Shown here: positions 48,236-54,633 of the stretch, one piece after another
How the letters are laid out: every line of letters starts with the position of its first letter
How positions within the stretch are numbered: position 1 is the stretch's first letter
Source: Actinomycetota bacterium
Lineage (GTDB): Bacteria; Actinomycetota; Actinomycetes; Nanopelagicales; Nanopelagicaceae
DNA: 54,633 nucleotides
NCBI GenBank assembly: GCA_014377015.1
Contig: JACMQL010000038.1
Coordinates: 1-54,633 of the forward strand
Reading direction: 5' to 3'
Translations under genes and position numbers: made by a program
Notes under the pieces: generated by a model
The model's input: only the letters and a program-made list of their open reading frames with translations
Database searches by the model: none
Told to the model about the DNA's origin: nothing

Positions 48236-48811
48236 CTAGTTAGTTTTCTTTCCCTTTTTCACTACAGGCGAATTGCGTGGCGTGGCAGACTTTTCTGGAG
48301 CCGTGGGCTTGGTTGGTGGGGCAGGTTTGACTGGTGGTATTGGCTTTACTGCTGTCGCAGATTCACGACTCAAAGCATCGAGGGCAACATTTCGAGCCGC
48401 CGTTGCATCATTAATTGCCACGATGCGAGCATTTATGGCCGCGCTCTTTTGGTCAGCGGTTTTAGCAGTTCTCATAGTAATCGTAAAAGTTTTGTTTGCT
48501 TGTTGAACGGATATTTTGAAATTCTGCGCAATCATTTTTCTTTTATCTCGTAAATTTTGCAACGCCATTTTCGCATCTTTTAGCGCAGTATTTACGGCAT
48601 CCTTGTAACTCGCGAGTGACTTTTTCCAAGCTTCGTTATATTGATCCATGGCGATCTTGTAGTTAGCCATGGCAACTTTGTAAGCAGCCAACTGGTCAGC
48701 ATATGAGGAGGAGGTGAAATTTGAAGTAGTGTCAGCGGTTGCGCCACTTGTTGACATGACCGGCAACGATAAACTGAGTGTTAAACCGACGATGAGTCTT
48801 GTGGGCTTCAC
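48236..48811 (-). CDS. Secreted coiled-coil protein with Pro/Lys-rich tail
   Basis: The 191-residue protein starts with a signal peptide (VKPTRLIVGLTLSLSLPVMS then TSGATA), continues as a long Ala/Lys-rich helix with heptad-like spacing (YADQLAAYKVAMANYKIAMD and following, about residues 35-140) and ends in a PVKPAPPTKPTAPEKS-like Pro/Lys region and a basic tail. It has no recognised enzyme motif. The GTG at 48811 is chosen because GAAAGGTG lies 5 bases upstream and the signal peptide begins there. It is divergent from the response regulator at 48982, with 170 bases between, and may be an envelope target of that system; this is inference. Confidence 0.75.
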   Translation of the reverse strand: MKPTRLIVGLTLSLSLPVMSTSGATADTTSNFTSSSYADQLAAYKVAMANYKIAMDQYNEAWKKSLASYKDAVNTALKDAKMALQNLRDKRKMIAQNFKISVQQANKTFTITMRTAKTADQKSAAINARIVAINDATAARNVALDALSRESATAVKPIPPVKPAPPTKPTAPEKSATPRNSPVVKKGKKTN

Positions 48812-48981
48812 GATGGCACCTTTCACTTGCTTCAAGTTAACTGCTCTATGTCCCGATTGTGAGGTGAGACTTTGTGGATTTTCTGTGAAAATTCTTCGCG
48901 CATCGTGGATGATAATGATTTTTGCCGCAAAGGACATGGCAAGCGCGCTGCTACCGTCTACTCTCGTGGGGGAGGTAACGG

Positions 48982-49677
48982 ATGACTAAACCCTTAATCT
49001 TGATTGTCGACGACGAAGTAGGCGTCCGCGAATTGCTGACAGATGCCCTTCGCCTGAGCGACTTTGAAACGCTTGAAGCCAAGGATGGCATGACTGCCCT
49101 GACCCTCATGCGAAAGCACAAGCCCGACCTAATGATCATCGATGTCAATATGCCCGTAATGGATGGCTTTGAATTTCTCGAACGAGTGCGGTCAAAGAGT
49201 GACAACACGCCTGCGATCATGCTGACTGCTAGGAAAGATCGGGCAGATGTGACGCGCGGGTTGCGCCTGGGCGCCGATGATTACATAAGCAAGCCTTTTG
49301 GTCTCGAGGAGTTAGCACTAAGAGTTCAAGCAGTTCTACGCAGATCTATGAGAATTGAGGAAGAGTTTTCGATACTTACATGCGGGCCAATTTCCCTCAA
49401 TGAGCAAACTTATGAAGTACTTCTGGATAGCGAGCAGGTCGAGTTGTCGAAAACCGAATTTCGACTTCTACATCACCTCTTGCTCAATAAGGGAAGGGTG
49501 ATGACAAAGGCCAACATCTTGAGTGAAGTTTGGGAGATTGATTTCCAGGCGGACTCGGGCGTGGTCGATACATACATTTCCTACCTGCGACGCAAATTCC
49601 ACTCGGAGACCTTCGAGGGTATCAAGACGGTCAGAGGAATCGGTTTCCAGATTGTCGAACCCAAAGGGAAGTCATGA
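48982..49677 (+). CDS. OmpR-family response regulator
   Basis: The 231-residue protein has a receiver domain with Asp10/Asp11, phosphoacceptor Asp54 (MIIDVNMPVMDG) and the conserved Lys in DDYISKPF, and a winged-helix domain (LSKTEFRLLHHLLLNKG, VDTYISYLRRKF). GGGGGAGG lies upstream of the ATG and TACTCT (48959-48964) is a possible -10. It overlaps the kinase gene by ATGA. Closest general type is the TrcR/PrrA-like actinobacterial regulator; the regulon is unknown. Confidence 0.93.
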   Translation: MTKPLILIVDDEVGVRELLTDALRLSDFETLEAKDGMTALTLMRKHKPDLMIIDVNMPVMDGFEFLERVRSKSDNTPAIMLTARKDRADVTRGLRLGADDYISKPFGLEELALRVQAVLRRSMRIEEEFSILTCGPISLNEQTYEVLLDSEQVELSKTEFRLLHHLLLNKGRVMTKANILSEVWEIDFQADSGVVDTYISYLRRKFHSETFEGIKTVRGIGFQIVEPKGKS

Positions 49678-51035
49678 GGCTTCGTGCCAGACTCAGTTTG
49701 ATTTCTGCGGTTGTGACGACTGCAAGTACTTTGGTGGTCGGTGGAATAGCGATTAATTCCCAACATCAATCACAAATTGCTTTGATCGATAATTCTCTCA
49801 ATCAGGTGGTGACCGCAGTCCAACCGAAGACAAACGCTGCTCTCTCGGAGGCTCTCTTTGCCGTTCAACAGAGCGACTTATCTCTTACGCTTATCTATTA
49901 CACAGATCCGCAGAGCCCGCTTGTCCTTAGCGAATCAAATCTATCCGCGGACCTTGATCCAAGTGATTCGCAGGTGAAGGCTGCACTTGCGCATCCGGTA
50001 TCGATCAGCGCAACCGAGAGTTACCGACTACGTGCAATTAGCCTGCTTAACGACGAATACATTTTGATCGCTGCGAATTTACAGGAGGTCGAATCGAGGT
50101 TCGAAACGGATCGATTCCACTTAATACTGTTTATTCTCCTTTGCTTGTTAATTGCAACTTTAGTGACCTGGTTCTTTTTCAGGAGAGATATTCAAAAGAT
50201 CGAATCTTTGATCCTGACCGCCGAGGAAATTTCACTCGGGGAATCACGAATTGATATCAAGGTTGACGGAGGCAACTCAGAAATCGACCAGCTTGCGTCC
50301 TCACTCAACCGCATGGTCGCAACTTTGAGAAGAACTGCCGAGGTGGAGGAACTCGCAAACCAAAGGATGCAAGAGTTCTTGGGGGATGCTTCGCACGAAC
50401 TTAGGACGCCGTTGACCGTTATCAGGGGATATATCGAACTCCTCGCGGGCACTAGATTTAGAGACGAAGATCAAAGGGCGAAGGCTTTCGATCGCCTGGC
50501 ATCGGAAATCGCTCGAATGGAATCGCTCATAAACGATCTTCTATTTCTTGCGGAATCGGGTACGTCGCGCCAAGTTGAGTTCGAGAATGTGGAACTCTCA
50601 CTTCTCTTGCTTTCCCACACGCAAGATTTTAAACAGGTCAATGTCTCCCGCAAAGTCGAACTTCGTATTGCTCCATCGATCTTCATTTCTGGTTCGGCCG
50701 CGCTGCTTTCCAGGCTCCTGACAAATATTTTCAGCAACGTTGCGCGCCATACACCTGCTGATGCCCCAGTCCATGTGACCCTAGAAGCGTCAGTTAACCG
50801 AGTGCGATTGTTGATCGAAGATGGGGGACCAGGGCTCCCTGGAAGCGCATACGAGTACGGCCCTCAAAATTTTCAGCGATTCGACAAATCGCGCTCGCGA
50901 GAAGGCGGCGGTTCTGGATTAGGGATGAGCATTATCTTTGCAATAGTCCAGGAACTCGGGGGGAAAATTAGGTTGCTTCGGAGCGACTTGGGCGGCCTCG
51001 CGTTAGAGATTTACTTTGATAAATTAACGGCGTGA
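49674..51035 (+). CDS. Sensor histidine kinase
   Basis: The 453-residue kinase has helix 1 at about residues 8-27, an extracytoplasmic domain of about 120 residues, helix 2 (FHLILFILLCLLIATLVTWF), HAMP, phosphoacceptor His241 (LGDASHELRTPLTVIRG) and an ATPase domain (LLTNIFSNVARHTP, GSGLGMSIIFAIVQELGG). In the N box the usual NLxxNA appears as NIFSNVA. It pairs with the regulator before it. The stop overlaps the methyltransferase start as GTGA, so the kinase and methyltransferase are translated together. Confidence 0.93.
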   Translation: MRLRARLSLISAVVTTASTLVVGGIAINSQHQSQIALIDNSLNQVVTAVQPKTNAALSEALFAVQQSDLSLTLIYYTDPQSPLVLSESNLSADLDPSDSQVKAALAHPVSISATESYRLRAISLLNDEYILIAANLQEVESRFETDRFHLILFILLCLLIATLVTWFFFRRDIQKIESLILTAEEISLGESRIDIKVDGGNSEIDQLASSLNRMVATLRRTAEVEELANQRMQEFLGDASHELRTPLTVIRGYIELLAGTRFRDEDQRAKAFDRLASEIARMESLINDLLFLAESGTSRQVEFENVELSLLLLSHTQDFKQVNVSRKVELRIAPSIFISGSAALLSRLLTNIFSNVARHTPADAPVHVTLEASVNRVRLLIEDGGPGLPGSAYEYGPQNFQRFDKSRSREGGGSGLGMSIIFAIVQELGGKIRLLRSDLGGLALEIYFDKLTA

Positions 51036-52240
51036 ACATAGAACTCGAACCCGCGCTGGATGAGGCCGAAGGTCTTATCCGTGGCGTGGATAAATTAGTT
51101 CGCGTAGTTCTCTCCGGAAAGCGAAGAGATATGTCGCCGCTTTCGATGAGAGTCGACATACGGCCGATTAGCCTGAAAGGGAAAATACTCTTGCAGGTGG
51201 TCGAAAATGATGGTCGACAAGCCACAACTAAAAATCACCTACCCGACATTCTTGATGTGAGGACAATTCTGAATTCGGGTTTTTCCAATATTCACATTGA
51301 TCACGTCGAAGGCTCATTTTCGATTCGAATTACCAAGAAAGAAGCGGTGTTGGTAAATCGGAACAAGGAAAGATTAGATCAGCACCTTGAACACGATCAT
51401 CAAAAAGTTAGATTCCTGGATCCGTCAGATGCTTATCTTCGTGAAGTCGGAATTTCCGATGTGGATGGCCGCATTAAGCCGTCACGGCAAGATAAGTATC
51501 GGCAAGTCGAGGAATTTCTCCGACTTCTTGTCCCGAGTCTCAATTCCGCAATTGCCGCAGGTCATATTGCAGAGCCCACTGTGGATCGACCCTTACAACT
51601 AGTTGACTTAGGGTGCGGCAGCGCTTATCTAACTTTTGCCGTCCATCAATATTTACAGAGCCACTCGATTCCAATTCATGTGACAGGAATTGACGTGCGA
51701 GTTGATTCAAGAGATAAGAACACGGAAGTCGCTGGCAAATTAGCCATCGCTGATTCAATTGAATTCATTGCACAAGTAATATCGAGCGCAGATCTTGCCC
51801 ATGTCGACGTTGTGATGGCGCTGCACGCCTGTGACACTGCCACAGATGATGCAATCTCCTGGGCTGTGAACCACGACGCGAAGTTAGTGTTGGTGGCTCC
51901 TTGCTGTCATCACGATCTTCAATCGCAAATCACAGATCCCCCTGAACCTTGGAAACTTGTAACTAAGAATGGACTACTGAAAGAACGTTTTGCAGATTTG
52001 CTCACTGACGCACTTCGTGCGCAGATATTGAAATTGGTCGGGTACAGAAGCGAGGTAATCGAATTTGTCGGTGATGCACACACCCCTCGGAATCTAATGA
52101 TTCGAGCGCTAAGAACTAACGCTGCACCGAGTAAGAAAGATCTAGACGAATATAAGAATATGATTTCGCTTTGGAATGTTCAACCCGCATTGGCGGACCG
52201 ACTCAGTTCTCGAATGATGGTGGTGCTCAATGACCTCTAA
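51032..52240 (+). CDS. Class I SAM-dependent methyltransferase, METTL25-like (Methyltransf_32)
   Basis: The 402-residue protein has an N-terminal domain (about 1-130, with VVLSGKRRDMSPLSMRVD and an ITKKEAVLV segment), a linker RFLDPSDAYLREVGISDVDG and a methyltransferase domain with motif I VDLGCGSAYLTFAV (Asp192) and MALHACDTATDD. APCCHHDL (Cys291-Cys292-His293-His294) is the family hallmark. The layout is that of a conserved bacterial family of unknown substrate; eukaryotic METTL25 is a distant relative. It starts with GTG overlapping the kinase stop and overlaps the LuxR-type gene by 11 bases. Confidence 0.85.
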   Translation: MNIELEPALDEAEGLIRGVDKLVRVVLSGKRRDMSPLSMRVDIRPISLKGKILLQVVENDGRQATTKNHLPDILDVRTILNSGFSNIHIDHVEGSFSIRITKKEAVLVNRNKERLDQHLEHDHQKVRFLDPSDAYLREVGISDVDGRIKPSRQDKYRQVEEFLRLLVPSLNSAIAAGHIAEPTVDRPLQLVDLGCGSAYLTFAVHQYLQSHSIPIHVTGIDVRVDSRDKNTEVAGKLAIADSIEFIAQVISSADLAHVDVVMALHACDTATDDAISWAVNHDAKLVLVAPCCHHDLQSQITDPPEPWKLVTKNGLLKERFADLLTDALRAQILKLVGYRSEVIEFVGDAHTPRNLMIRALRTNAAPSKKDLDEYKNMISLWNVQPALADRLSSRMMVVLNDL

Positions 52241-52946
52241 AAAGAAGCCCATAATGAATCCGCAAGTCACCACACTTAGTCGTTTATTAGTTGTTGAAAA
52301 TAATTTCCGCCTCGGAATGGGGCTACTACTTGCGAAAATTTTGCAGCTTGCGGGGGATCCTTCACTTCAGGCCAGGGTTATTGACGCAAAAGATCTCGCA
52401 CAAGAATTGAGTGATTTCAAACCAGAAGTCGTTGTCCTCGATATCGATTCACTTCGTCACAGTGCGGCTCTGCAAATCGCGTTGGACATACTCGACCAGA
52501 ATCCTGATCAAATAATTGTCCTAATGTCAGAAGGAGCTAATCCGATCATGGTGAAGGAGGGAATGCTCTCCGCCCTATGGTCCAATGCTTATTGGCTCAA
52601 TCAACCTTCGCGCTATCCAGAATTGGTGTATCCGGAGATCTTGCGTGCTTTCAACGGCAAGAAGCAATTGAGCACTGAAATCCTGGAAGCGGCAGTTCTC
52701 GAGAGTAAGCATCTTGGATTACTGTCTCCTCAACAGCATCGAGTGATGAGGCTTGTCTCGCTGGGGGCCAGTAACGCCAAAATCGCACGAGATTGTCGTC
52801 TGACAGTAAAGGCCGTTGAGCGCACCATCGCCGCAGCCTCGAAGAGCATGGATGTTGAGCCCTCTTCACCGGATACGAACCATCGCGTCAACGCGGCCAA
52901 CATGTATGGGCGGCTCATGCACTTTGCGGATATCTCTGGTTCCTAG
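52230..52946 (+). CDS. LuxR-type DNA-binding response-regulator-like protein
   Basis: The 238-residue protein has a receiver-like N-terminal part with a conserved acid in VVVLDIDSL (Asp71), but an asparagine-rich beginning (VVENNFRLG) in place of the usual acidic pocket, so normal phosphorylation is uncertain. The C-terminal helix-turn-helix is GerE/LuxR-like: LSPQQHRVMRLVSLGASNAK, then IARDCRLTVKAVERTIAAAS. It closes a four-gene chain. Its stop lies 118 bases before the collagen-like gene, a candidate target. The intergenic region has two CGGGGGCT words (52964, 52999) and a TAATAT at 53034. Confidence 0.82.
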   Translation: MTSKKKPIMNPQVTTLSRLLVVENNFRLGMGLLLAKILQLAGDPSLQARVIDAKDLAQELSDFKPEVVVLDIDSLRHSAALQIALDILDQNPDQIIVLMSEGANPIMVKEGMLSALWSNAYWLNQPSRYPELVYPEILRAFNGKKQLSTEILEAAVLESKHLGLLSPQQHRVMRLVSLGASNAKIARDCRLTVKAVERTIAAASKSMDVEPSSPDTNHRVNAANMYGRLMHFADISGS

Positions 52947-53064
52947 TGAGTAACTTTTCATTTGGACGGGGGCTTCCCTCGGGCGGGATGACTTTTAGCG
53001 GGGGCTCATGCCCTACACTTATGGCGGTTATCTAATATCACACTGCAGATAGGGAGTGGTTAGC

Positions 53065-54633
53065 ATGCGCAACGATCGTACAAACGTACGCCGATTAGCC
53101 ATGCTCGGACGCAAATTATCCTTATTTTCCGCAGTTATTTTGCTCTCTTCCGGCATTCAAGTTATGTCGTCATCAGCTTCTCCTCTTACGTCAGGATTCA
53201 CCTCAACTGGGATGTCCAGTCCTTCCAAAGCGGCGAGACTTTCCTACGGATTTACGCAAGCAGGCGGCCTCAGCGGCCCACTTAAAATTCCGTCTTCTTC
53301 TTCTGCGAGTCCAACTCCGACGTTAAAGGGACCTCTTTCGACGACTCCCACGAAGTCGCCCACTTCGGGCAGTTCATCGGGCAGTTCATCGGGTGGCGGA
53401 AAACCAACCGTCAAGCCGAGTTCTTCAAGTTCCGGTGGTGGTGCCTCAGCGATCGCGAATGCAGCTAGGGGCTTTACAGGTTCATCTGCCGTAGTGGGTG
53501 CTCAAGGAGCAACAGGCGAGCAAGGAATTCAAGGCGAGCCTGGCCCAGCGGGACCAGCAGGCCCGCAAGGGCTTCAAGGACCACTAGGTGTGCGAGGACC
53601 TCAAGGCGCTGCAGGTGAAACTGGAGTTACTGGTGCAAAAGGTGACCCCGGTAGTTCTGGTGCCGATGGTGCTACTGGTGCCAAAGGTGACACAGGTACT
53701 ACTGGTGCCAAAGGCGATACGGGTGCCAAGGGTGATACGGGAGCGCAAGGCCCAGCCGGTGGTATAGGTGCACAAGGCCCTGCCGGTCCTGCCGGCCCTG
53801 CCGGTGCAAACGGAATTAACGGAGTAAACGGCGCCCAAGGACCAGCCGGTTCAGTCGGTTCAGCCGGTCCAGCCGGTCCAGCCGGTCCAGCCGGAAGCGG
53901 TACCGGAACTGTAGGTTCAACTGGTCCTGCGGGACCACAAGGTACTGCCGGTCCTGCGGGTCCAACTGGCCCAGCTGGATCGGGATCTGGATCGGGGTCA
54001 ACTGGTCCTACTGGTCCACAGGGTCTCATCGGATTAACGGGTCCTCAGGGACCAATCGGTACCCAAGGTCCTGCTGGCCCTGCCGGTGCAAGTGGTTCTG
54101 TCGGCCCAACTGGTACGCAAGGTATTCAAGGCTTTCAAGGCATACAAGGTAGTCAGGGTCTTGTCGGGCCTGCTGGTCCAACGGGAGTCGGAAGTGGCAG
54201 CGTCGGCCCAACGGGATCAACTGGATCAACTGGTGCAGTTGGAGCAACAGGCGCCGCTGGTGCAGTTGGAGCTACCGGATCGCAAGGCTCAATCGGATTA
54301 ACCGGTGCAGTCGGAGCAGTTGGAGCAACAGGCGCCGATGGTGCAGTTGGCGCTACCGGAACGCAAGGCTCAATCGGGTTAACCGGTGCAGTCGGTGCAG
54401 TCGGTGCTACAGGTGCCGCTGGTGCAGTCGGTGCTACAGGCGCCGCTGGTGCAGTTGGCGCTACCGGATCGCAAGGCTCAATCGGATTAACCGGTGCAGT
54501 TGGAGCAACAGGTGCCGCTGGTGCAGTTGGAGCTACTGGTGCCGCTGGTGCAGTTGGTGCTACCGGATCGCAAGGCTCAATCGGATTAACCGGTGCAGTT
54601 GGAGCAACAGGTGCCGCTGGTGCAGTCGGAGCA
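53065..54633 (+). CDS. Secreted collagen-like Gly-X-Y repeat protein, 3' end cut by window
   Basis: The frame stays open from ATG 53065 to the window end (523 codons, no stop). GGGAG lies about 9 bases before the ATG. The N terminus has basic residues and a hydrophobic signal ([20 protein letters not shown]). A Ser/Thr/Pro/Gly-rich stalk follows up to about residue 145, then over 370 residues of Gly-X-Y triplets, first proline-rich ([10 protein letters not shown]), then dominated by GATGAAGAV and [10 protein letters not shown]. Such proteins form surface triple helices or fibres in bacteria. Without prolyl hydroxylase, stability would come from Gly-Pro-X and charged triplets in the first part; the later part has very few prolines. 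Function unknown; adhesion or surface coat is inference. Confidence 0.9.
54283..54633 (+). repeat. Tandem DNA repeats inside the collagen-like gene
   Basis: The word CAAGGCTCAATCGG recurs at 54283, 54364, 54472 and 54571, spaced 81, 108 and 99 bases, all multiples of 9 (three Gly-X-Y triplets). Between copies GCCGCTGGTGCAGT-type units repeat with small third-base changes. The nucleotide identity points to recent duplication and to length variation between strains. Confidence 0.85.

Follow-up and report, generated by a model that had tools for sequence, protein, structure and literature searches.

The stretch of DNA analysed here, called the window, is a complete contig (C21) of 54633 bases whose setting is probably a freshwater Nanopelagicaceae actinobacterium. 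Its last part carries a two-component system, that is a response regulator and a membrane histidine kinase, facing a divergent gene for a secreted coiled-coil protein and followed by a methyltransferase, a LuxR-like regulator and a collagen-like protein. The genes were called with a greedy longest-ORF (open reading frame) script, and the gene positions and overlaps given in the first-pass annotation (ATGA, GTGA and 11 bases, that is 4, 4 and 11) were confirmed from the reading frames and their translations. A FAD-oxidase gene precedes the coiled-coil gene, and a relative from Candidatus Nanopelagicaceae (L065) carries the same gene block. The features are as follows.

48236 to 48811, minus strand: secreted coiled-coil protein, 191 amino acids, GTG start at 48811 set by alignment with relatives
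48871 to 48891, plus strand: predicted regulator site TTTGTGGATTTTCTGTGAAAA, with its TGTG boxes spaced by 11 bp
48982 to 49677, plus strand: OmpR/PhoB-family response regulator (Pfam Response_reg 112.5 bits, Trans_reg_C 78.4 bits)
49674 to 51035, plus strand: membrane histidine kinase (Pfam HAMP, HisKA and HATPase_c), ATGA overlap with the regulator
51032 to 52240, plus strand: class I S-adenosylmethionine (SAM) methyltransferase (Pfam Methyltransf_32 115.5 bits, cut-off 27), GTGA overlap with the kinase
52230 to 52946, plus strand: LuxR/NarL-like regulator with an atypical receiver and a sub-threshold GerE match, 11-base overlap with the methyltransferase
53065 to 54633, plus strand: secreted collagen-like protein (Pfam Collagen 174 bits), gene open at the window end

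Read from the sequences, the conserved unit at this locus is the sensor pair together with the secreted coiled-coil gene, linked by a shared DNA motif. A divergent coiled-coil gene was found at 29 of the 31 regulator loci, one of which is a duplicate (L063 = L034). By gene calls it was the next divergent gene at 26 of them; at L046 it lay one short reading frame further from the regulator, and at L090 and L161 it was detected beside the regulator by hidden Markov model (HMM) search. The unit was kept with the methyltransferase lying elsewhere in G028, G031, G065, G067, G076 and G097 and, judged by coordinates, in G078 and G086, and it occurred without an adjoining methyltransferase in g9 and g12 genomes. 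A search for the coiled-coil family itself found it in 16 of the 21 genomes of the genus, and 15 had the regulator, the coiled-coil gene and all or part of the kinase. Six genus genomes (G001, G006, G007, G010, G011 and G016) carried the methyltransferase but gave no kinase match at E 1e-55, a threshold that leaves the diverged kinases of G010, G023, G025, G073 and G093 uncounted; five of the six had no coiled-coil gene and G010 had one beside a diverged pair.

The motif TTTGTG-N4-TTCTGTGAAAA was present between the coiled-coil and regulator genes in 28 of 28 intergenic regions, picked as coiled-coil/regulator loci, with 0-4 mismatches. It consists of two TGTG boxes arranged as a direct repeat 11 bp apart, with an information content of 24 bits across 26 copies. 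The window site at 48871-48891 precedes the coiled-coil start by 59 bp and the regulator start by 90 bp. With up to 3 mismatches allowed it is the single match in the window, where 0.18 matches were expected. Among 19 pattern matches in the window's own genome, the best two were this site (32.0) and a site on contig C33 (22.9) that lies 59 bp before a coiled-coil paralog, followed by one scoring 18.0. In a control scoring of 419 called genes, which includes loci whose sites built the scoring matrix, 35 reached 11 or more and all of these were regulator or coiled-coil genes.

As the matrix was built from sites upstream of regulator genes, the unlinked coiled-coil genes provide a separate test of the site. 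The 45 coiled-coil rows comprised 20 regulator-linked genes, 21 unlinked ones (no regulator match on the fetched stretch of about 2.5-5.7 kb) and 4 that were dropped for having no N-terminus in frame. For the 21 unlinked genus paralogs, whose upstream regions were readable, the site reached a score of at least 11 in 17, always in the same orientation and 57-64 bp upstream, and the best match had this position and orientation in 19. When 32 genomes were scanned with up to 2 mismatches allowed, the pattern matched 66 times and its reversed form 25 times; 60 of the 66 were inspected, the other 6 all lying in kinase-less genus genomes. Nearly all matches with 0-1 mismatch (21 of 22) stood before a coiled-coil gene: 16 were regulator-linked, as were the sites from which the pattern was derived, 3 preceded second coiled-coil genes in such loci and 2 preceded unlinked paralogs. 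The 44 matches with 2 mismatches included 13 at regulator genes or coiled-coil genes, among them 8 at unlinked paralogs, and 25 elsewhere, many within genes. The gene unit, the site, its fixed geometry and the paralogs that carry it are supported at the level of sequence.

These observations could also be explained by operon hitch-hiking of the gene order and by the motif being a promoter or activator element of general use, such as a CRP-like site, in place of a site for the partner regulator. TGTGA half-sites such as those of the motif resemble CRP sites, and a few other genes also carry the motif. However, the motif is a direct repeat at 11 bp spacing and no palindrome, the six genus genomes without a close kinase had no match at 0-1 mismatch in the genome scan, and two regulator loci without a coiled-coil gene also lacked the site. 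We therefore regard this explanation as improbable. We consider it likely instead that an envelope-sensing two-component system controls a secreted helical protein family, and that the methyltransferase, LuxR-like and collagen-like genes are its variable neighbours.

Several observations weigh against such a regulon. The two loci just mentioned (L147 in g5 and L148 in g14, by HMM and site check) show that the regulator-kinase pair can occur with neither coiled-coil gene nor site. The unlinked paralogs G012:C18 and G014:C47:18831 had no site upstream, and two more on G018:C104 scored just 8.8 and 3.6, being members of a three-gene coiled-coil cluster (L268) in which the sites decay from 16.1 through these values while their position stays fixed at 60 bp upstream. 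Several of the 21 unlinked paralogs are orthologous to each other, which reduces the number of independent cases. Elsewhere in the genomes lay 26 of the 66 scan matches, many of them in coding regions, and good sites also preceded other genes: that of a SIMPL protein in G109, a short-chain dehydrogenase/reductase (SDR) gene in G065 and a collagen-like gene in G002. In G035 a site scoring 26.4 (L202, 2283, minus strand) stands 69 bp ahead of the gene for a large fn3 protein that is secreted; its orientation is the one seen at coiled-coil genes, and it is the sole exception among the 22 matches with 0-1 mismatch. Sites of 25.7 and 23.1 (L198, 1623, minus strand; L210, 1063, minus strand) lie upstream of an extracytoplasmic function (ECF)-type sigma gene and are kept in G012 and G014, where they stand just after the gene of a secreted Ig-like protein.

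The coiled-coil protein of the window has, by eye, a signal peptide, followed by a helical hairpin at residues 37-154 and a proline-rich basic tail. Its AlphaFold model consists of two long helices (37-115 and 119-154), with block means of 90-98 for the predicted local distance difference test (pLDDT) across residues 41-150. It matched no Pfam or NCBIfam family above cut-off, its relatives in L144 and L157 matched no Pfam family either, and a fold search with the model returned nothing at E 0.001 or better. At L208 1100-3536 (G004:C17) three coiled-coil genes stand in tandem next to the regulator, and every one of them has a site of its own upstream (26.4, 14.3 and 27.8).

The first-pass annotation had proposed an obligate coupling of the kinase with the methyltransferase, and this had to be abandoned. 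Searches among 151 genomes of the family found the methyltransferase (E 1e-10) in 112 and a close kinase (E 1e-55) in 45. The kinase lay within about 1 kb upstream of the methyltransferase in 29 of the 112, counted by hand from coordinates, with G017 and G019 resting on kinase fragments at contig ends. It lay elsewhere in 9 (about 8.7 kb away in G005, about 620 kb in G028, and on other contigs in seven), and in 74 it was not found at this threshold. Conversely, 7 of the 45 kinase genomes had no methyltransferase match, some of these being incomplete assemblies. The gene order is likewise broken in close relatives, as seen in G005 and in the six genus genomes without a close kinase. The methyltransferase comes immediately after the FAD-oxidase gene, which in the window stands before the coiled-coil gene, in G001, G007 and G011, and is separated from it by one gene in G016.

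A dedicated signalling module, with a kinase-controlled methyltransferase that would modify a partner RNA or protein, draws some support from the overlap of the two genes in the window and from the position of the kinase: among genus members that carry the methyltransferase it lies directly upstream in 12 of 19, and among g16 genomes it is within 1 kb in 17 of 19. On a tree of 28 methyltransferases, chosen from the 112 with G018 left out, kinase adjacency needs 3 changes, and none of 500 shuffles was as low. Adjacency clustered in this way has been inherited within clades, yet gained or lost, and it leaves room for a mild functional link between the two, which also counts against treating the methyltransferase as a mere neighbour. 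The operon could, moreover, be transcribed from the regulator promoter, and in the window the methyltransferase is probably co-transcribed with the regulator-kinase operon. Apart from the many genomes in which the two genes are separate, six of the 17 g16 genomes have room for another gene between them (TerC-like in G124, another methyltransferase in G104), no methyltransferase was among the control genes scoring 11 or more, and the family reaches Paenibacillus, Blautia, Chloroflexi and Verrucomicrobia, besides Nocardioides, Micromonospora and others (best 80 of 580 loci). A dedicated module is thus unlikely, although slightly less so than the general promoter element. By its distribution in the sequences searched the methyltransferase belongs to a broad, free-standing family and is itself a variable neighbour to the kinase; its place in this operon is confined mainly to two genera.

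It is the sole Methyltransf_32 match in the window's genome. The CCHH motif claimed for it is present as PCCHH, in which C291 and C292 are invariant and H294 nearly invariant across 48 aligned sequences. Its predicted structure (pLDDT 93.5, predicted template modelling score 0.76) shows an N-terminal beta domain that has no Pfam name. A substrate was also sought from the structure, and the PDB fold matches were varied class I enzymes (ChlM, ErmC', PsiM), so that this left it undecided; the best PDB sequence match had E 0.59. A TRM13 match was weak (23.0, cut-off 26). From its sequence features we infer that the enzyme is probably RNA-directed. Methyltransferase fragments were seen in other assemblies. 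At L061 4640-7459 (G018:C74) kinase and methyltransferase fragments recur in inverted order as far as the end of the contig, which looks like an assembly artefact truncating the methyltransferase. At L188 9-110 (G073:C101) an N-terminal methyltransferase fragment at a contig end adjoins the coiled-coil gene that accompanies a diverged regulator-kinase pair, on the opposite side of the block compared with the window.

The LuxR-like gene did not hold up as a fixed part of a four-gene chain, as it adjoins the methyltransferase in three genomes only (the window's, G012 and G017). The description of its receiver pocket as atypical was borne out. The protein had no receiver match in the Pfam search, and its GerE match of 19.7 bits is below the cut-off of 23.5, which relatives in L151 pass with 25.7. 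In the pocket, with positions assigned by eye, Asp71 is kept and an Asn (YWLN) stands in place of the expected Lys in 10 of 10 aligned sequences, which makes control by phosphorylation doubtful. Tandem pairs of this atypical regulator occur at L151 5750-7134 (G009) and L150 1476-2860 (G020), and the G009 pair comes after GGDEF/EAL genes, suggesting a connection of these tandem regulators with cyclic di-GMP.

The collagen-like gene, cut by the contig end, starts 118 bp past the LuxR-like stop and so lies outside the overlap chain. The block is followed by collagen-like genes in G012, G015 and G002 too; the best scores upstream of these were -3.8, 1.4 and 21.1, and by this matrix scoring the genes of the window (-6.1), G012 and G015 have no regulator site upstream. 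A shared motif before 48811 and 53065, which the first-pass annotation had suggested looking for, is contradicted by the scores of 32.0 before the coiled-coil gene and -6.1 before the collagen-like gene. The earlier idea of a sensor controlling fibrous surface proteins finds support in the coiled-coil protein, whose site is conserved and recurs at unlinked paralogs, and none in the collagen-like protein of the window, which has no site.

In the mechanism that we propose, the kinase would sense the state of the envelope and the phosphorylated regulator would bind the 11-bp-spaced TGTG direct repeat between the divergent transcripts. Both this binding and the direction of control are what we infer from sequence. 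The regulator would control its own operon and drive the coiled-coil gene together with the unlinked paralogs, and the secreted helical hairpins would act at the cell surface. The coiled-coil proteins may also influence the kinase in turn, like CpxP in its feedback on CpxA. An envelope-stress signal and such feedback are suggested by analogy with CpxRA-CpxP, and it counts against the proposal that the feedback is indicated by gene position and helical shape only.

More broadly, and tentatively, with the chances somewhat short of even, freshwater Nanopelagicaceae-like actinobacteria may use an outer sensor free of cysteines to run a dispersed regulon made up largely of one expandable secreted coiled-coil family. 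Such a regulon would serve as a dedicated response, coating the surface or buffering the envelope, that the smaller genus genomes would have lost along with the kinase, and an RNA-type methyltransferase would have joined the operon in two genera. A guess from gene neighbourhood is thereby replaced by a testable regulon of one short DNA element, one regulator that gains a target list, and a defined, unannotated secreted family. A literature search found no description of this regulon at the level of listings, which is no proof of its being unpublished.

With respect to the closest known systems, METTL25 belongs to Pfam Methyltransf_32. The methyltransferase resembles METTL25/TRM13-related proteins in this domain (PF13679, 115.5 bits) and in the CCHH motif and differs from them in its N-terminal beta domain, so that the likeness is one at the domain level. 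METTL25 is described as a case with little known (PMC11514484). The regulator and kinase have the domains of OmpR/PhoB two-component systems (receiver and winged helix; HAMP-HisKA-HATPase). PhoB/OmpR-type operators have boxes spaced 11 bp apart. The same spacing of about 11 bp is seen in the predicted direct repeat upstream of the system's own operon (all 28 chosen regions, missing in L147 and L148), where the box is TGTGAA-like. The regulator scores below the NCBIfam equivalogs PhoB (184 bits, cut-off 296) and MtrA (174, cut-off 300).

In CpxRA-CpxP, a secreted helical protein is encoded divergently from the regulator gene, and LTxxQ is the signature of the CpxP/Spy family. The system described here likewise combines an OmpR-family regulator, a HAMP kinase and a divergent secreted helical protein, and the kinase matches NCBIfam CpxA, at 139 bits far under the cut-off of 486, but the window coiled-coil protein has no LTxxQ motif (translation read by eye). 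PMC12802291 calls CssRS a homologue of CpxAR and states that kinases bearing at least two extracellular cysteines are wholly absent from 1.1% of strains, which are largely Candidatus Nanopelagicales. The kinase of the window accords with this, as its one cysteine (157) lies, by eye, in the second predicted membrane segment and none lies in the extracellular stretch. It thereby differs from CutS, which senses by a cysteine pair, and the CutR site TAWATAAA differs from the TGTG repeat. Unlike both the envelope stress system CpxRA-CpxP and the secretion stress systems CssRS/CutRS of Gram-positive bacteria, the system described here has several unlinked coiled-coil paralogs.

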